Shown: piece after piece, positions 4,902 to 21,782 of the stretch
How the letters are laid out: each line of letters begins with the position of its first letter
Position numbering within the stretch: the stretch's first letter is position 1
Assembly: GCA_030591685.1 (NCBI GenBank)
Contig: JAUVAX010000002.1
Location: forward strand, 62,001 to 126,000
DNA length: 64,000 bases
Origin: Pseudobdellovibrionaceae bacterium
GTDB taxonomy: Bacteria; Bdellovibrionota; Bdellovibrionia; Bdellovibrionales; UBA1609
Direction of reading: 5' to 3'
Translations under genes and position numbers: made by a program
The notes under the pieces: generated by a model
Databases searched by the model: none
What the model saw: only the letters and a program-made list of their open reading frames with translations
What the model was told of the DNA's origin: nothing

Positions 4902-6845
4902 TCACTTAATTTTTTTAAATATTTTTGTAACGGCATCAAGAGCCGTTAGGTCAAACAATAGAGTTTTCACCCCAATGCCGTCTTTCACCTTTGTATGAAA
5001 TCGTGAGCGTTCTCTTTTTGCTGGTATGTGTTTGGGGTCTAAAGAGATAGCTTGTGTAAAACACTTATAGGCTCTATCCCTATCACGAGACATTAACAGC
5101 AATAATCCCTTAGAGTAAAAGTAATTAGCACTATGGCGATCCTCTGTTGGTACTTCATTTAACAACCCTAAGCACTGAGTATGTAGCTTTTCTTTGCTTT
5201 CTTTAGTGTAACCTTTTTTTATTACGGCCCAGACATAGTAAATATTTATATCTGAACTCTTCTCTTTGGATTCAAAGATTTCCTTGAAAATCTTGTAGGA
5301 CTCCTTGTATCTACGGTTAAGCAGGGCCTTCTTGCCAGAGATAAAAAGGTCTTCGTTATGTATAATTAATTCGGATTGATTAACCTCTAGTTCGTGCAGG
5401 TATTTGCCACGGTTTTCGTCACTTTTAAGAGTCTGGTAGGCCTCAGTCATAAGTGTAAATATTTTTTCGTTAAGTTTAATAAGTTTAGAGGAGGCGTCGC
5501 CTGGAAGTTTATCAGGGTGTAGTATTTTTGCGAGTTCGTGGTAGGATCTTGAGACCTCTTTTGATGGAGTATTAGCATTAACGCCTAAGATCTCAAAATA
5601 GTTTTGAACTAGCATTTGTTTGTAAATAGTTTTATACCGTTTAAATTTATTGCGGTCTTTTGTATTGTCTACTTTTTCTTTTGAAAACTGAAAAACTCTT
5701 AAATTGAGTAAAAAGTAAAGGGCTCGGTGTAGTTCTTTTTCGTACTTGCTGTTTGCGTCCATGAGCTTTTGCAGAGCGGCACTAGAGTCGACGACTTTTA
5801 TGATTTTAGAAAACTTTTTTAAAACAGACTGATGTTCTAGATTTAAGAACTCACTGAAGTGAACCCCTTTTGAAAAACTTTTTTCAAAAAAGGGAGTAAA
5901 AAAAGTTTTCAACCAGGCCGGGGGTATTTTAGAAGAAATAATATCATTTAAGTAAGGTATAAACTGTTCTTTTGTGAGGTAAAACTCTTCAGGGGGAGTG
6001 TCTTCATCAGTGAAATTAATCTCGATAGAAGTGTTTGTTGTGCTTTTACTGAGTCTAATGGCCATTTGTTGTTTTTTTATGAGGCCAATGACGTGTGGAC
6101 TAATGGCATTGATGTCGACGAGGCGCTCACCTAATCTTTTATGAGAGTTATTTTTTAGTATTTGATCAATCTCCTCTCGGCCAGAGAAGCCCATTTCGAT
6201 AAGTAGTGACCCAAAGTATGAATGCTCATCTTTAAGGTTTATGTGAGTCATGTTCCCCTTATGAAAGACAACAGTAAATATTTCACCTTGCCCCATCATA
6301 ACATTTAAAGTTCCGGAGAGAGTTGAGTTTAAAATTAACGAATAAATCCAAGGTAAATCAAAACCGTGTGTAATTTTTGTGTCATTCAATATATTTACGA
6401 GTTCCTTGTTGCTTGGAGGGGGCTTGCTGAATAATTCATAAAGTAGAGAGGTATTATATGATTGGTAGGGTTTTAGGTTATCTTTAATAAGGTTGACGAT
6501 TTTTTGTAAATTTGCGGGTTTTTTAAAAAAACCCAAAGAGGGAACTTTTTGGAGAGCTTTTCTAACGAGCTGCTTATCTTTAAAAACCCCACTCATAAAT
6601 ACAAACACAGCCTCTCCGGCGCACTGAGCGTTTATTTTTTCAGCTAAATCAATACCGTTCATTGTTGGCAACAAGAGGTCTATAATAATAACTTGGAACT
6701 CACTAAATTTGATTTTTTCAAGGGCCTCATTGGGGTGATGAACAAGGGTTGGCTTCATATCAGCTCTTAGCAAAGTCTCGAAAAGTGCCTTACCTTGAGT
6801 TTTGTTATCTTCTACAATGAGAACACTAATATCTTCGCTGCTCAT
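4902..6845 (-). CDS. Response regulator with DUF4388, DnaJ J-domain and TPR region
   Basis: 647 residues in four parts. A receiver at 1-125 keeps the phosphorylation residues (E12/D13, D56, S85, K109-P110). A DUF4388/PATAN-like region covers about 155-270. A J-domain at about 413-485 has the HPD motif at 443-445, within NYFEILGVNA...LHPDK. A tetratricopeptide-like helical region follows at about 495-630. J-domains stimulate Hsp70/DnaK ATPase, so the plausible role is phosphorylation-controlled recruitment of DnaK or a co-chaperone function; the target is unknown. No DNA-binding domain is present. It converges with a pseudo-receiver gene one base away. Confidence 0.85.
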   Translation of the reverse strand: MSSEDISVLIVEDNKTQGKALFETLLRADMKPTLVHHPNEALEKIKFSEFQVIIIDLLLPTMNGIDLAEKINAQCAGEAVFVFMSGVFKDKQLVRKALQKVPSLGFFKKPANLQKIVNLIKDNLKPYQSYNTSLLYELFSKPPPSNKELVNILNDTKITHGFDLPWIYSLILNSTLSGTLNVMMGQGEIFTVVFHKGNMTHINLKDEHSYFGSLLIEMGFSGREEIDQILKNNSHKRLGERLVDINAISPHVIGLIKKQQMAIRLSKSTTNTSIEINFTDEDTPPEEFYLTKEQFIPYLNDIISSKIPPAWLKTFFTPFFEKSFSKGVHFSEFLNLEHQSVLKKFSKIIKVVDSSAALQKLMDANSKYEKELHRALYFLLNLRVFQFSKEKVDNTKDRNKFKRYKTIYKQMLVQNYFEILGVNANTPSKEVSRSYHELAKILHPDKLPGDASSKLIKLNEKIFTLMTEAYQTLKSDENRGKYLHELEVNQSELIIHNEDLFISGKKALLNRRYKESYKIFKEIFESKEKSSDINIYYVWAVIKKGYTKESKEKLHTQCLGLLNEVPTEDRHSANYFYSKGLLLLMSRDRDRAYKCFTQAISLDPKHIPAKRERSRFHTKVKDGIGVKTLLFDLTALDAVTKIFKKIK

Positions 6846-6999
6846 GCTGGACTTTTCGGCAAAATAAAGCCCTAACTTTAAGTATATTCAGATATTTACA
6901 AGCTCACTCGGGGCAGTTGCATTCAAACTATAAATTGTGTATGAATATTATATTCGACAACAACGAAAAGTAACATAATATTTATTTTAGGAGAGTTTT

Positions 7000-7320
7000 A
7001 TGGCAACAAAAAGTATTTCAGACGGTTCCTTTCAGCAGGATGTATTGCAATCATCGGGCCTGACCTTAGTCGACTTTTGGGCTGAATGGTGTGGCCCATG
7101 CAGAGCTTTAGGCCCAAAATTAGAAGAAATCTCAACGGAACTCAGTGAGCAGGTTTCTATCTCGAAAATAAATATTGATGAAAACCCTGAAACTCCGGCT
7201 AAGTACCAAGTGCGCGGGATTCCAACAATGATTTTATTTAAAGATGGTGAAATGGTAGACACCCTAGTAGGTAACCAAACTAAAGACGCTATTATTCAAA
7301 CCATCAACAAATACCTTTAA
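7000..7320 (+). CDS. trxA: Thioredoxin
   Basis: 106 residues, the normal thioredoxin length. Active site W30-C31-G32-P33-C34 and cis-proline P75 in RGIPTMILF are intact. It is a cytoplasmic disulfide reductase supplied by thioredoxin reductase. The ATG is preceded by AGGAG with good spacing. It stands alone, upstream of the convergent mre/rod operon. Confidence 0.95.
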   Translation: MATKSISDGSFQQDVLQSSGLTLVDFWAEWCGPCRALGPKLEEISTELSEQVSISKINIDENPETPAKYQVRGIPTMILFKDGEMVDTLVGNQTKDAIIQTINKYL

Positions 7321-15862: not shown

Positions 15863-18208
15863 ATGTTGTTGAAACGACTCTTGGCCGTTTTTATATCTCT
15901 ACACTTTTTTTTAAATGCCTTCACCACCCATGCTTGGGCAAGGTCGAGGACGCGGTATAACGAATACGAAGTCCGATTATCCTACCCTGATCAAGTTTTT
16001 CAGTCTGAATATGAAAAACTACGCACTCACGCCAACCAATTTATTGACCAACTCACCCCCTCTCAAAAAACCACTTTTATAAGCTCATTAAAAAACACCC
16101 CTTATCACTTAAATATATATAAAGAAGTTTCTTCAGAAAACCTATTGTCTACAGGCAAAGAGGTTCTTGGGAGGGTGTTGTTTGTGGAGCATGAGGGCTC
16201 ACTAATTAGGCATTACATGCTCTCTTCAAACGATAGGCTAGTGATTTCTGTTAACAAACAGCTACTTAAAGATGCCGATATGGACTTTTTAGAAAGACAC
16301 CTTAAAGAGGTTTATAGTAAGTCTACAATAGCTCGGGAGGTTTCAATTACTTGGAACGGCTTTATACACTCTCAAGATGTTTATACTAAAAGCCATAGTT
16401 TAGCGGCCGAGGACGTTGATTTAATGGCCAAAGCCACTGTAATGAGTTTGTCATATAATAAGAGAGTTCATGAAATGAACGAAAGCACTTTTGATGCTTT
16501 TATTAATGGCTCTATAGAGGCAGAAATTGAAAGGGTCAATGGGCCTAACAGGAGCATTAGCCCTGAAACTTTGGGTTTAATTTTACCACTATATAATTTA
16601 GCGATTGAAAAGCTAGAGGACTTTTACCTCACCGAAGCCTATGAGTATGTTAAGGGGCGGTCTGCACCTAACCAGATGGGTTTAGAGCAAACAGCTGAGC
16701 TTATGCACGAGGCCCGAGAGGCAGCTCAAGAGAGTTTCTTAAAGGGTCTTCAGGAGACAGGTAATATAGAGTTTCACGATATAGAGCTTGGGAAAGTGGT
16801 GCTTACAACTATCGATGGGGAGCTTGTGTATAAAATCCGACCCAACGGAACTGAAAAGATCTTTTTATGGGCCCCAAAGGGTTTAATTTCTGCTGATTCA
16901 ACGCATTTGAGGCAATATATATCAAGGCAGTTTATTGATGCTGGGACTGATAGGTCCGACGGAGAGCGCGGCCGGGACGTTGTACTTATGTGGGCTGATG
17001 AACTCGGTCAAGGGCCAGATATTAAAACTGAGAAAACAACAAAATCAATACCTAAAGTCACAAATTCAAGTGTTCAATTTAATTACCATCAGCGCCCTCA
17101 AGCTTGGACGGCAGAGTATTTTAAGCACTATTGGCGAGCCACTTATAAGCCTACGAGTGCTTCAGATAAAAAATTAGGTATTTACTGCGCCGTTTTGCAG
17201 GGCCTCGTCATGGCCGGGGTCAATGTGATGAAGGTTTCACTCGGGTATGCTGAGGCCATTAACCCATGGACTATTGGTGTGATTATGGTGTTCGGCGGGG
17301 TTATAGGAGCTAACTCAAGTACATATGTAAATTGGAAGTACCGTAAGGGCAAAAAAACAGATTCAGAATTTAAGAACAAAGCCATTCAAACAGCCAAAGG
17401 GGCCACTATAAGTGTGATGTACTCCGTGTCAGTAGGGATTGTTGATAACTCACTTCATAGTTTATATCACATCGCTTACAAGGCTTATGATATAGTTATG
17501 AACTCTTATGGTAAAACTGAATTTGAGCAGTGGGCTGTTATTAAACGCGAAAAACGCGCCGATTTAAAGAGCGTTGGGCTCCCTTATATTGGTTTAAAAA
17601 AACAAAAATTTGTAAAACTAATGAACTTCGATACTGGTAAAAAAATTCTCGTCAATACATCAGAGGCTGAAGAGCTAGTTAAGTCAGAACAGGCTGAGTT
17701 TTTAGAGGCGGACAGTGAGAGAAGGGTTCGAAACAGGTACTCTATTGGCCTAAAATGGATCGATGTACCAGAAGGCAAGGTGAATTTTCAAATTAAAACC
17801 CAAAACGCTATTATAGCAGTAAGGTCAGTGTCTTTAATGATGCAGGTGTGGTGGGTGTGGGCCTCAATACCACTTGTAAAGTACTTAACGTTAAAGTGGG
17901 CTGAAAAAAACCACCCAGATATGGCCGAGAAACTTGAGCTCAGGCAAAAGTGGGATAATTTTATTTTTAACCCCAATCCGAAAAGATTGGTCTCTAATTT
18001 GTACAGAGTGACGATTTTAAAAGCCATGAATACTTACAAAGAAAAACAAATACAATCAGATTTTGTCAGGTCAGTTAACTCATGGAGCAATAAAGAGGGG
18101 CCACAAAAAATGACACCGGCACATAGGCCAGAGCAAAAACCTAAACGCAAGCCGGATTCAATTTTAAAAGAAAATTTATCTTGTCAGGGTTTGTTTGCCG
18201 CCGCTTAG
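15863..18208 (+). CDS. Large secreted/membrane protein of unknown function
   Basis: 781 residues, no family recognised. Signal peptide-like N terminus (1-26, ending THAWA), a mostly helical soluble region to about 430, then hydrophobic segments near 438-463, 466-488, 510-530 and 650-676. The last ~100 residues are basic and probably cytoplasmic. The start is one of two close ATGs; 15863 is in frame and GAAAGG lies 11 bp upstream. It follows the protease-PilZ gene by 199 bp on the same strand, so it might be functionally linked. The end is followed by a possible terminator. Confidence 0.75.
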   Translation: MLLKRLLAVFISLHFFLNAFTTHAWARSRTRYNEYEVRLSYPDQVFQSEYEKLRTHANQFIDQLTPSQKTTFISSLKNTPYHLNIYKEVSSENLLSTGKEVLGRVLFVEHEGSLIRHYMLSSNDRLVISVNKQLLKDADMDFLERHLKEVYSKSTIAREVSITWNGFIHSQDVYTKSHSLAAEDVDLMAKATVMSLSYNKRVHEMNESTFDAFINGSIEAEIERVNGPNRSISPETLGLILPLYNLAIEKLEDFYLTEAYEYVKGRSAPNQMGLEQTAELMHEAREAAQESFLKGLQETGNIEFHDIELGKVVLTTIDGELVYKIRPNGTEKIFLWAPKGLISADSTHLRQYISRQFIDAGTDRSDGERGRDVVLMWADELGQGPDIKTEKTTKSIPKVTNSSVQFNYHQRPQAWTAEYFKHYWRATYKPTSASDKKLGIYCAVLQGLVMAGVNVMKVSLGYAEAINPWTIGVIMVFGGVIGANSSTYVNWKYRKGKKTDSEFKNKAIQTAKGATISVMYSVSVGIVDNSLHSLYHIAYKAYDIVMNSYGKTEFEQWAVIKREKRADLKSVGLPYIGLKKQKFVKLMNFDTGKKILVNTSEAEELVKSEQAEFLEADSERRVRNRYSIGLKWIDVPEGKVNFQIKTQNAIIAVRSVSLMMQVWWVWASIPLVKYLTLKWAEKNHPDMAEKLELRQKWDNFIFNPNPKRLVSNLYRVTILKAMNTYKEKQIQSDFVRSVNSWSNKEGPQKMTPAHRPEQKPKRKPDSILKENLSCQGLFAAA

Positions 18209-18275
18209 TGTAAAAAACACGAATCATAGTGTTGCGCTAGCACTTAAATACATTTTTATAATCATTTTTTTTAAG

Positions 18276-18300
18276 AGCACCTTCAGGGTGATGTTTTTTT
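18276..18300 (+). terminator. Possible terminator after the unknown membrane protein
   Basis: Short stem GCACC...GGGTG followed by ATG and seven Ts. The stem is only 4-5 bp, so this is tentative. Confidence 0.45.
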
Positions 18301-18312
18301 ATCGAGGTGTTT

Positions 18313-18335
18313 AAAAAAGGCCTCTAATAGAGGCC
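18313..18335 (-). terminator. Terminator overlapping the last stop codon of the small-gene operon
   Basis: Stem GGCCTCT (18319-18325) and AGAGGCC (18329-18335), followed on the minus strand by six Ts. The TAG stop of the 18324-18671 gene lies inside the stem. Confidence 0.8.
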
Positions 18336-18671
18336 CCATGAAAGAGTAAGTTCTTTTTGCTCTCGCCATTTTCGGTGGCGTAAATTTCTTTTTTTGTGTT
18401 TTTCAATTTGTATAATTATTTTTTTTTGGGCCTTTTGAATGGCCGTCAACAAACAATTATTTGTAGACTTAGTCACCGCTGCACTTGCGAGCCCATTGAC
18501 CATGATCCGAACACTGTAGAGACCTCGCTGAGGCTCCGGGTGAATCACTACAAATACGCGGTGGGACTCTTCATTATGCAGGTGAGACTTTATATTGCAG
18601 ATGCTTTTATTGATTTCTTTTTTTAGACGAACAGGGTTGTCAACCCCGTTAATTGTGATTTGATCGTTCAT
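18324..18671 (-). CDS. HPF/YfiA-like (ribosome hibernation fold) small protein
   Basis: 115 residues. The order of elements matches hibernation promoting factor: strand ITINGV, helix LKKEINKSICNIKSHL, strands VFVVIHPEP, YSVRIMVNG and AAVTKS, then helix TAIQKAQKKIIIQIEKHK and a basic tail. HPF proteins bind the 30S decoding region and idle ribosomes. Similarity is at the pattern level, so the fold is inferred, and the long basic tail is unlike standard short HPF. GGAG precedes the ATG. Last gene of a three-gene operon whose first gene looks related. Confidence 0.6.
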   Translation of the reverse strand: MNDQITINGVDNPVRLKKEINKSICNIKSHLHNEESHRVFVVIHPEPQRGLYSVRIMVNGLASAAVTKSTNNCLLTAIQKAQKKIIIQIEKHKKRNLRHRKWREQKELTLSWGLY

Positions 18672-18694
18672 TTAATAGGCTCCTTTTTTATAAA

Positions 18695-19045
18695 TTAATA
18701 ATACTTTTTTAGTTCATTAGATTCATAATCGACGCTCTCGTAGTAGGATTCGAAGGGGAGGGTGGACTCTCTATCATCCTCATCACAGGTGTAGTGATCA
18801 ATTTGTATCACCTTTCGGCCGTCAATATCATCGACTAAATATCCAAAGACATCGATGAGGGACCAGGTGAGGTGCCCTAGGTACCTCGTGGCATCTGTTG
18901 TTAGTAGGGTATACTCCTTTCCATCATTTGTGGTCAAAACGTGGTGAGACTCTAACTGACCATTTGATTGGTAAAAGGGGACAAGCACCCCTTTTATTTT
19001 CATGTAAACATGTGAATCTTTTTTTAATTTTTTTGATGTGTTCAT
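18695..19045 (-). CDS. Small acidic protein of unknown function
   Basis: 116 residues. After a basic start it is rich in beta strands (HVYMKIKGVLVPFY, EYTLLTTDATRYLG, GRKVIQIDHY) with an acidic C terminus (DEDDREST, ESVDYESNE). The strand pattern is like small OB-fold domains, but no family is recognised. GGAGG precedes the ATG. It sits between two HPF-like genes, 23 bp upstream of the next one, so a shared function is likely. Confidence 0.65.
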   Translation of the reverse strand: MNTSKKLKKDSHVYMKIKGVLVPFYQSNGQLESHHVLTTNDGKEYTLLTTDATRYLGHLTWSLIDVFGYLVDDIDGRKVIQIDHYTCDEDDRESTLPFESYYESVDYESNELKKYY

Positions 19046-19121
19046 AGACGGCCTCCGTTATATTTTTAATTAAATAAGTTATAATATTAGTTATGCCTAT
19101 AAATTTAAGTTTTATGATTGA

Positions 19122-19436
19122 TCACGAGATATCTTCTTTAACTTTTAAAGAAAACCTATGATCTCTCCAGGGCTGTAGTTGTTGCTTTATGTTTTTTGTG
19201 AGTGAACTAATGAGGCTCCTAATGTTCCGACCGTTCTCTTGGCATTTAAATACCCCACATGTTGATACAATTTTTACGTTGATTAAAAAAATATTATTTG
19301 GGTTTTTATTTAAATGAATCTTTATATAGGAGTTGCTTGGGGATATGTTCTGTAAATACTCAGCCGCTGAAACAACAGCGTCCTGAAATTGAGAAGATTT
19401 TTTGTCATAACTTAGGTCGCAATTTTTTAAAAACAT
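19122..19436 (-). CDS. Second HPF-like small protein, more degenerate
   Basis: 104 residues. Helix QFQDAVVSAAEYLQNI, strands YIKIHLNKN, IFLINVKIVS and GVFKCQE, then helix IRSLISSLTKNIKQQLQ and HRFSLKV: the same order as the HPF-like gene at 18324, suggesting paralogy. The start has GGAG in CGGAGCCGTCC-ATG. It is the first gene of the operon; 76 bp separate it from the next. Assignment to the hibernation fold is tentative. Confidence 0.5.
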   Translation of the reverse strand: MFLKNCDLSYDKKSSQFQDAVVSAAEYLQNISPSNSYIKIHLNKNPNNIFLINVKIVSTCGVFKCQENGRNIRSLISSLTKNIKQQLQPWRDHRFSLKVKEDIS

Positions 19437-20114
19437 GGACGGCTCCGTTTTTTAATGAATATTTTTTTACCTGAGTTGTTTTCCCTTTTGTTTCCTATTC
19501 GTGTTTTAAGAATGAAGGAGTTATCTAATTATTATTTTTCTGCGGCAATATAATTTTTTAAATTTGTAAATGTTTTCATCGTAAGTGTTTGTTTATACTT
19601 ATGTTTTTGTTAAGCCCCCGTTAAGTTTTTATCAATTAAAAATTAACAAAAGTCATAAGTTATTGAATTATAAAATAAATCTCACTTTTATTATTTATGC
19701 ATAACGTATTGTTATTTAAAATATAAAATTAAATGTATTGCCAGCAACCTTTAATTAAACTTTTGAGTTTGTAGTTTTAGTAAGTACATATTTTTTTAAG
19801 TAGAGCTTCAATTAAAGTTATTTTTATCAGCACAGTAGGTTAGGTTAGGTTAGGTTAGGTTAGGTTAGGTTAGGTTAGGTTAGGTTTGCGCTTTGAGGCT
19901 GCTTATGCAGGACTGACCGCTCACTCTATTGTTAATGTCTAAATTTTAAGTAGATTTTTATTAAACAGTTGCTGAGCACATATTTACTAAGTTCGCTTCA
20001 TAGGGTGTGCCCTTTTTGCATTAACCTTTAGCTATCGCCCAACTATGAGTCGATACTGTTTAAACTTGAGTCACTCGTAGTTAAGTAGATAAAAAATTAT
20101 GTCGATATAAAATT
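19437..20114. other. 678-bp AT-rich intergenic region with (TAGGT)10
   Basis: It contains the pentamer repeat at 19836-19885 and otherwise very AT-rich DNA. I see no convincing gene, no DnaA-box cluster and no RNA gene. AGGG-TGTG-CCCT followed by TTTT near 19998 is only a 4-bp stem. Confidence 0.6.
19836..19885. repeat. Pentanucleotide tandem repeat (TAGGT)10
   Basis: Ten perfect, uninterrupted copies of TAGGT (50 bp), about 230 bp upstream of the first pseudopilin gene and outside any reading frame. Such repeats change length easily by slipped-strand replication. Confidence 0.97.
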
Positions 20115-21077
20115 ATGAATACTCAATGGGGTTTTACTATTAAATCAAACAGAGGTGCTTCACTGATACAGGTCATGATTGCCTCTGCCGTTGCGGGTAT
20201 TGTAAGTTTACTTATTGTCAGTGTGATGCAAAACCTTTTAAAGATGAACAAACAGATTAATGTAAAAACTAATGCTATAATGATTAAGCAATCCATTGTT
20301 TCAATACTCCAAAACTCCGAATCTTGGGAGCACACACTTGATGCAAACACTGTTAAAATGGGTTGTATAAAAAACGGTGTGTCGTGTGCGGCGTATGCTG
20401 ATTTAGATGAGGTAGATCCAGATAAAAGAGAGGGAGAGCTTTTTGTGCTTAAGGACTCTCATAACAACACAGTTAGAGGTTTTACAAGTAATGGTGTGCC
20501 CTGCACAGGTTTCGTAGACCCTACGGCGGGTGCTGACGGTCCCTTGCCCGGAGTAGATAGTTGCCCTTTTGGAGTTGTTTTAAAATTTCTTGCGGACTGC
20601 CCTGACGCTAGTAACTGTATTAAGCCCCTTGTAAAGATCTCAGGATATATTTATTATAACTCTCGTAAACAGAAATTCCCTTATAACCCTGAAAATAATA
20701 AAATTGACTTCATTAGGTCGGGGGATTCAGTGGCTTATATGTGTGCTCAGTTTGGTGGTACTTATAACAGTGCGGCTAAAACATGTGGCGGCGTAGGAAA
20801 CACTGTTGCTGTGGCACCTGTTGTGGCAGCTGGTAATCCGTGCCCTCTTGAGCATGCTTTCTCAGCTGGGAATTCTCCAATTACCATGGTTGATGACGGT
20901 ACGAGGGAGTTTGGAATACGAAGAGGCATAGGTCGTCGACTTGTGAAATGGTATTTGCAAGGTAACAATCTATGGTGTTCTGTAAATAAATCAAGACGTA
21001 AGTTTCACAAGTGTAATAATGGCGTATGGGACTGTGATACGGGAGCAAGCACCTGCTTGACTGTGACGTCGTGTTGA
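20115..21077 (+). CDS. Type IV pilin-like protein (pseudopilin) with Gln at position 5
   Basis: 320 residues. A short basic leader ends in RG before ASLIQVMIASAVAGI, the prepilin-peptidase pattern and first hydrophobic helix of type IV pilin-like proteins. Mature position 5 is Gln, not the usual Glu. After the helix: a conserved SWEHTL, a Cys-containing DxCPFG segment and late cysteines (CxLTVTSC). It shares these blocks with the next gene (a tandem paralogue) and more loosely with 44650-48594. Probably a minor pilin or pseudopilin; the pilus assembly genes are not in the window. Confidence 0.75.
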   Translation: MNTQWGFTIKSNRGASLIQVMIASAVAGIVSLLIVSVMQNLLKMNKQINVKTNAIMIKQSIVSILQNSESWEHTLDANTVKMGCIKNGVSCAAYADLDEVDPDKREGELFVLKDSHNNTVRGFTSNGVPCTGFVDPTAGADGPLPGVDSCPFGVVLKFLADCPDASNCIKPLVKISGYIYYNSRKQKFPYNPENNKIDFIRSGDSVAYMCAQFGGTYNSAAKTCGGVGNTVAVAPVVAAGNPCPLEHAFSAGNSPITMVDDGTREFGIRRGIGRRLVKWYLQGNNLWCSVNKSRRKFHKCNNGVWDCDTGASTCLTVTSC

Positions 21078-21116: not shown

Positions 21117-21782
21117 ATGGAGCTATTAATTAAATCTAATAAGGGTTTTTCACTGATACAGGTTATGATGTTAGCTTCTGTTGCAGGCATATTAAGTTTT
21201 ATAACAGTTAATATGATGCAAAATAATTTAAAAATAAATAAGCGCCTTAACGCTAAAGTTAGTGCTGGGATGATTAATGCGTCTGTAATTGCCATATTAA
21301 ATAACAGTAAATCATGGGAGAACACACTGAGTGCAAATCAGACAATGACTTGTTTAGAGGATAGTGCGGACTGTAGTAGCTTTGGTGATCTAGCTGAACC
21401 TTTTGAGCTCAGGGATGTTCACGACAATATAGTAAAGGGCTTTACGAGTACTGGGGCAGCATGTACAGGCTTTGTGGGCCCTTCAGTGGTGGGGCCTAAT
21501 GGCCCATTGCCAGGTGTTGACCATTGCCCCTTTGGAGTTGAACTTAAGTTTCTTCCGGATTGTGTAGATGACGCTTGCGAAAACCCTTTAGTTGGGATTA
21601 CGGGGGTTGTTTATTATAACCCCAGTAACAGGTCGTTTTCGTTTAACCCTGAAAAAAATAAAATTGATATTACTCGCACGGCTCTCGGAGGCAGTTTCGC
21701 CCTTCTATGCAATAGGTTTTTAGGAACATACATTCATGCGAGCCAATCATGTACACTGGCTGATATCATTCAACAACCGTAA
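21117..21782 (+). CDS. Type IV pilin-like protein, tandem paralogue of the preceding gene
   Basis: 221 residues. Leader ends KG, then FSLIQVMMLASVAGIL; mature position 5 is again Gln. It shares with the upstream gene SWENTL, GFTSTGAACTGFV, GPLPGVDHCPFGV and a late NPEKNKIDITR block. Shorter C terminus than its neighbour. Start ATG with GAGGGG upstream. 39 bp from the previous gene, so co-transcribed. Confidence 0.75.
   Translation: MELLIKSNKGFSLIQVMMLASVAGILSFITVNMMQNNLKINKRLNAKVSAGMINASVIAILNNSKSWENTLSANQTMTCLEDSADCSSFGDLAEPFELRDVHDNIVKGFTSTGAACTGFVGPSVVGPNGPLPGVDHCPFGVELKFLPDCVDDACENPLVGITGVVYYNPSNRSFSFNPEKNKIDITRTALGGSFALLCNRFLGTYIHASQSCTLADIIQQP

Follow-up and report, generated by a model that had tools for sequence, protein, structure and literature searches.

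The bacterial hibernation factors named in PMC10901736 are few, namely RaiA/HPF, RMF, and Balon. Among the described systems closest to the locus reported here is the short form of HPF/RaiA (YfiA), which is represented by the curated models PF02482 and TIGR00741. A stress-linked S30AE protein is also known from mycobacteria, the hypoxia-induced dual-domain HPF termed RafH. According to PMC10799931, basic residues in helix alpha-1 of RafH contact h44 and those in alpha-2 contact C1382-G1384, and mycobacteria also keep another HPF, MPY. Stress operons combining baeRF/Balon with RaiA form a third system of this kind. Gene neighborhoods of baeRF and HPF were treated in a 2019 study (PMC6514570), and Balon genes are grouped with RaiA, Hsp20, and MarC (PMC10901736).

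The locus lies in a window of 64,000 nucleotides, the whole stretch of DNA that was analyzed, from a Pseudobdellovibrionaceae bacterium. This window belongs to contig C73; the genome measures 2.66 Mb, and its completeness is estimated at 100%. The operon in the window appears to be a form of ribosome-hibernation system that has so far not been described; no description of such a system was found in a literature search whose coverage mostly excluded subscription journals. Its features are as follows.

19122 to 19436, minus strand: gene A, 104 aa, an A-type protein of predicted S30AE fold with the signature P-S-x-S, S..G.F, and Q-L-x-x-W-[KR]-x-x-R
18695 to 19045, minus strand: gene B, 116 aa, a small predicted OB-fold protein, acidic in the window genome
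18324 to 18671, minus strand: gene C, 115 aa, a divergent HPF-like protein whose C-terminal tail is basic
18317 to 18337, minus strand: predicted terminator hairpin with U run, containing the stop codon of gene C (18324 to 18326)
19437 to 19449, minus strand: Shine-Dalgarno leader of gene A, AACGGAGCCGTCC, near-identical to the leader of gene B
19046 to 19059, minus strand: Shine-Dalgarno leader of gene B, AACGGAGGCCGTCT

With the short HPF/RaiA proteins, gene A shares its predicted fold and gene C a profile match over its length. Unlike them, A and C of the window stay below the curated cutoffs, A-type proteins form a separate clade with invariant residues of their own, the basic contacts of alpha-1 are mostly missing, and two copies are encoded in one operon together with an OB protein. 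In RafH, a single chain includes a linker and a second domain (PMC10799931), whereas the window encodes two separate single-domain proteins. The baeRF/Balon and RaiA operons (PMC6514570 and PMC10901736) are similar in joining an HPF-type gene, a second ribosome factor, and Hsp20/MarC-type genes, but the partner in the window has a predicted OB fold and is not baeRF. The model of B has the topology of SSB, PriB, and LysRS-anticodon-type OB folds, which are its best structural matches; B differs from these in being acidic and without a sequence family match, and its nucleic acid binding is putative.

The genes are transcribed in the order A, B, C, with intergenic gaps of 76 bp (A-B) and 23 bp (B-C). 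Each is preceded by a GGAG or GGAGG Shine-Dalgarno sequence, which for gene C reads AAAAAAGGAGCCTATTAA before the ATG. The leaders of A and B are almost alike, following AACGGAG(G)CCGTC(C/T)ATG (19437 to 19449 and 19046 to 19059), and the hairpins predicted over their Shine-Dalgarno sequences were not better than those of shuffles. Spacing and strand suggest that A, B, and C share one transcript. This agrees with the preliminary description of the region as a three-gene operon, inasmuch as three consecutive minus-strand open reading frames, each with a Shine-Dalgarno sequence, end at a terminator hairpin. RNA folding of positions 18345 to 18300 yielded a 9-bp hairpin at 18337 to 18317 (-13.3 kcal/mol) followed by a U run, and its stability was equalled by 2 of 200 shuffles. 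In the UAG stop codon of gene C (18326 to 18324), one base is the final base of the loop and the other two belong to the 3' arm, so that the codon does lie, as had been noted, within the predicted terminator. The hairpin was absent from the output of a consensus terminator scan, probably because its closing G-U pairs consume part of the T run. Rfam had no match in 17800 to 20200. The sigma-54 promoter pattern was matched 41 times in the window, compared with a shuffle mean of 50, and not once between 14940 and 20179.

The operon is flanked in the window by a gene for a 781-aa protein and by two pilin-like genes, none of which matched Pfam. The latter (20115 to 21077 and 21117 to 21782) are adjacent, have pilin-like N termini as judged by eye, and share 51% identity over 219 residues, representing a tandem duplication. 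Between the operon and the pilin-like gene, TAGGT is repeated in perfect tandem with 10.2 copies (19836 to 19886); three consecutive copies occur nowhere else in the window.

Both flanking proteins of the operon had been proposed to be HPF-like. For gene A, structure prediction gave a model with a pLDDT of 90.7 and the b-a-b-b-b-a order of solved HPFs, rather than a fold unlike HPF. The best 28 Foldseek matches of this model were HPF/RaiA/pY proteins or chains from hibernating-ribosome entries, and the best structural match was V. cholerae HPF (Z 11.6, rmsd 2.0 over 88 residues). Solved HPF/RaiA chains were also the best matches of the A-family profile in the PDB, at 4.4e-6 and weaker. Gene A is predicted with high confidence to adopt the S30AE (HPF/RaiA) fold, and its earlier assignment is borne out by both the model and the family profile. 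Searched alone, gene A had no S30AE match in Pfam or NCBIfam, reaching neither the PF02482 nor the TIGR00741 cutoff. The A-type clade as a whole mostly escapes these libraries: 9 of 27 members matched PF02482 at an E value of ≤0.1 (best, 2.3e-6), and 2 of 27 matched TIGR00741 at ≤0.01. In the tree, the A-type proteins formed one clade of their own with support of 99/92. P33 was invariant in the 27 aligned proteins, and S58, F63, and W90 were nearly so (window numbering); counted at the corresponding YfiA positions, these are P32 (27/27), S56 (25/27), F61 (26/27), and W88 (26/27). Relatives of gene A were present in 39 of 58 genomes, its own included, in a single-protein search at ≤0.1. Within the order, 101 of 140 genomes had an A-type match at ≤1e-4; across the phylum, 123 of 368 genomes had one at ≤1e-10.

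Gene C matched PF02482 with 19.6 bits (cutoff, 23.7; E value, 0.0016; residues 4 to 95) and TIGR00741 with 21.2 bits (cutoff, 40.9; E value, 3e-4; residues 4 to 100). Judged from these profiles, which it matches along its length though below the curated cutoffs, gene C is an S30AE (HPF) relative, as the preliminary description had supposed. A five-row C-family profile likewise found solved HPFs as its best matches in the PDB (5.4e-4), three of the five members, window C among them, matched PF02482 at ≤0.05, and a comparison of the A-type and C-type profiles gave an E value of 4.1e-9. A single-sequence search with C detected 5 of 58 related genomes at ≤0.01, its own included, and in the genome contigs such a search detected nothing. 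Nine C-like proteins formed a separate clade in the tree (98/97), with which window C was grouped at a support of 74/64 only. The topology joining window C to ordinary HPFs was not rejected (p-AU 0.394). Window C was considered as an ortholog of the paired C clade, and this assignment was dropped, with neither window C nor the protein of locus L126 placed firmly inside the clade. Because its placement is not firm, window C is named "C-like" and orthology is not claimed.

The model of gene B was less certain, with a pLDDT of 71.8 and a pTM of 0.56; residues 5 to 7, 90 to 94, and 100 to 108 scored under 50. It shows the OB order, a barrel of five strands in which strands 3 and 4 are separated by a helix. 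Structural matches (Foldseek, VIA) were mostly OB-containing proteins, including LysRS, RPA, SSB, and PriB. PriB was matched with a Z score of 9.0 and an rmsd of 3.7 over 79 residues; in this comparison a Z score below 8 may reflect a common arrangement, and 20 of 998 chains reached 8 or more. We assign gene B a predicted OB fold with moderate confidence, in line with the OB-like middle protein proposed earlier. Gene B matched no named sequence family in Pfam or NCBIfam, none of 12 family members matched Pfam at ≤0.05, and PDB sequences gave two weak matches only. The protein had also been called acidic. This is true of window B, which has a pI of 5.08 (net charge -7) and lies between the basic products of A (pI 9.55) and C (pI 10.18), but it is not a trait of the family, since only 6 of the 12 aligned members have a pI below 6.

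A single-sequence search with B returned its own locus and one weak match inside a 626-aa frame (E value, 0.039), and nothing in the genome contigs. The view of B as an orphan was discarded once relatives emerged among the genes beside A-C pairs. Against a profile of four such OB proteins, from which B itself was excluded, B ranked first in a comparison with 5,000 shuffles (E value, 0.0017; best shuffle, 0.058), and in a small set of open reading frames it scored 3e-4 with a profile built from these four. When the B-free profile was searched across the order, B itself was missed (no match in the window genome).

Of 140 genomes belonging to the order, at least 8 (G000, which is the window genome, G006, G007, G045, G050, G056, G057, and G084) carry an A-type gene adjoining a C-like gene; they represent seven genera and four families, as counted by eye from two listings of places. 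A was upstream of C on the same strand in all eight pairs. The A-C gap was measured in six pairs, those of the window and G084 not being among them, and ranged from -34 to +13 bp. B stands between A and C in the window; elsewhere, OB genes follow C or lie apart. Among the places listed, the pair was not seen in the other 132 genomes, and most A-type genes therefore seem to stand without C. The profile of alignment A2 matched 91 of 140 genomes, which include ordinary HPFs; this is not a count of C-type genes, because the alignment contains ordinary HPF rows. The operon had been proposed to be a lineage-specific module. "Module" is the right word, since the grouping recurs in other families, but for the same reason its distribution is wider than one lineage. 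In G084 (locus L115), a third HPF-fold-like gene (1128 to 1478) stands after A and C and before two OB genes; it gave a weak A-type match (9e-5) and no Pfam match at ≤0.01.

A search of 368 genomes of the phylum for the OB family (≤0.001) identified 14 loci, distributed over 13 genomes. An S30AE-fold gene lay within 5 kb of the OB gene at nine of these loci (G000, G056, G084, G097, G117, G132, G133:C65, G011, and G209), where G117 counts with a 72-aa A-type fragment and G133:C65 with an ordinary S30AE gene identified by Pfam. Leaving out the four loci that had led to the family (G000, G056, G084, and G097), the proportion was 5 of 10, with two of the five belonging to one genus. If a 3-Mb genome is assumed to carry 4 to 8 S30AE genes and shared descent is ignored, the chance of 5 of 10 is 1e-7 to 3e-6, and that of 4 of 9 is roughly 4e-6 to 6e-5. 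No other single finding speaks as strongly for the association as the C-OB pair of G209 (L147), which lies outside the order and contributed to no profile. Five loci (G081, G114, G214, G133:C46, and G215) had no S30AE gene in view. The OB genes of G081 and G114 adjoin Hsp20 genes, and that of G214 (L149) adjoins a weaker baeRF gene (26.2 bits; cutoff, 31.5), while G133:C46 and G215 had no S30AE, Hsp20, or baeRF gene in view. At G133:C46 (L127), two OB-family genes (600 to 1040 and 6717 to 7013) were present, one of which adjoins a sigma-54 activator gene, and no S30AE match was found within the 8 kb read. The OB gene of G011 (L148) likewise adjoins a sigma-54 activator gene.

No stress gene was found near the operon in the window itself, and the stress link therefore comes from relatives only. 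The richest of these neighborhoods is in G133:C65 (L113, 486 to 12991), where NhaA, a LysR-type regulator, S30AE, two Hsp20, OB, and an HtrA-type protease are followed by TrkH, a mechanosensitive channel, and MarC. This neighborhood may resemble transmissible stress-tolerance loci. Its S30AE gene was considered as C-like and is counted as ordinary, having passed the PF02482 cutoff (5.4e-10). Hsp20 genes are also found close to the module in G056 (L117) and G097 (L116), a CBS protein gene lies near the A-C pair of G057 (L123), and in G050 (L017) an A-type gene stands between LysR-type and NhaA genes. At L019, a baeRF gene directly precedes an A-type gene (PF18845 over cutoff, 1.4e-16). Judged by gene content, the neighbors in relatives (Hsp20, HtrA, baeRF, CBS, and NhaA) point to general stress. 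A role in the non-growing attack phase, which had been suggested for the operon, is neither supported nor excluded by the present findings; nothing ties the operon to it, and nothing on point was among the literature matches listed.

On balance, we lean toward reading the operon as an accessory, stress-linked ribosome-hibernation module that stands beside the ordinary RaiA-like protein of the genome and whose products would bind the ribosome. A, B, and C would be made together under stress. A and C would then act jointly on the 30S subunit, at the HPF site or close to it, and might do so as a heterodimer with each other. Their partner would be the OB protein, either filling a neighboring groove or aiding loading or release. 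The module would add to the RaiA-like protein encoded on contig C93 and would not replace it. We infer joint action of the three proteins on the ribosome from their gene order, folds, and neighbors.

The contact surface of the proteins bears directly on this reading. We aligned 47 sequences, comprising 3 solved HPFs, 6 ordinary paralogues of the order, 11 C-like proteins, and 27 A-type proteins, and scored YfiA positions R23, K26, and K29 of alpha-1, which, by helix register, probably correspond to the RafH contact positions. Basic residues at these three positions occurred in 3/3, 3/3, and 2/3 of the solved HPFs, in 4/6, 1/6, and 2/6 of the ordinary paralogues, in 0/11, 0/11, and 1/11 of the C-like proteins, and in 4/27, 6/27, and 5/27 of the A-type proteins. 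Window A carries A/Y/N and window C carries S/N/S. A- and C-type proteins thus appear, from the alignment, to be without most of the classical alpha-1 basic contacts to h44 of 16S rRNA, and they are therefore not simple HPF copies. It is above all because of this changed surface that a simple HPF mode is doubtful. The same change would also suit HPF-fold proteins that had been repurposed away from the decoding center and bind other RNA or protein, for example as part of a proteostasis response involving Hsp20 and HtrA; the OB protein would then be their partner. The new A-type invariants (P32, S56, F61, and W88), the separate A-type clade, and the Hsp20 and HtrA neighbors fit such repurposing. 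However, alpha-2 remains basic, and more so in C-like proteins, 10 of 11 of which have an extra basic residue at each of positions 76, 78, and 79 (K/Q/K in window C), and the baeRF neighbors belong to the field of ribosome hibernation according to PMC6514570. We regard repurposing as unlikely, if still a serious contender to hibernation.

Redundancy of an ordinary kind is a weaker explanation. The genome encodes further S30AE proteins, two over the PF02482 cutoff and one that narrowly misses it (22.6 bits; cutoff, 23.7), the RaiA-like gene on contig C93 being matched at 1.2e-15. A and C might accordingly be two extra fast-evolving short HPFs that act singly, with an unrelated OB gene sharing their transcript by chance, and the undecided position of window C between C-like proteins and ordinary HPFs in the tree would accord with this. 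Such an account is improbable in view of the recurrence and tight spacing of A-C pairs and of the OB relatives found within 5 kb of S30AE-fold genes at 5 of the 10 loci not used to find them. That the genes form a toxin-antitoxin-like or phage defence cassette, in which S30AE-fold and OB proteins control each other, is highly implausible, for although they are small and codirectional with basic and acidic neighbors in the window genome, neither gene order nor charge is conserved and PADLOC gave weak partial matches only (A to HamB, 0.01; B to Cmr5, 0.021; C, none).

A more specific form of the hibernation reading, which we put forward tentatively and consider rather unlikely, is a split three-part complex. 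It would consist of an obligate A-C heterodimer of S30AE proteins on the small subunit and a dedicated OB-fold subunit, encoded in stress neighborhoods across the phylum, beside ordinary RaiA and with no RMF or long HPF found. In the genome of the window, neither the C-terminal domain of long HPF (PF16321) nor RMF (PF04957) was matched at an E value of ≤1; the RMF search was a weak one, its control passing the cutoff in only 1 of 14 genomes. Formation of 100S particles by the known routes is therefore unlikely, and 100S, if formed here, may arise by another route.

Elsewhere in the genome, a 98-aa HPF is encoded between two CBS-domain genes (L002 on G000:C64, 1000 to 2246; PF00571 at 3e-12 and 3e-32). 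In the archaeal factor HibA, a CBS module is joined to an HPF domain in one protein (PMC13324472), and by analogy the CBS-HPF-CBS arrangement may be a split bacterial counterpart of HibA.

These findings delineate a large clade of predicted HPF fold that is mostly missed by curated libraries and that, in some genomes, is paired with a second HPF-like protein and an OB partner. If the hibernation reading is true, a multisubunit way of parking ribosomes would be added to the few known hibernation factors, and the several HPF-like genes kept by some genomes could be explained. The split A-C-OB complex, if true, would represent a new architecture for ribosome hibernation.
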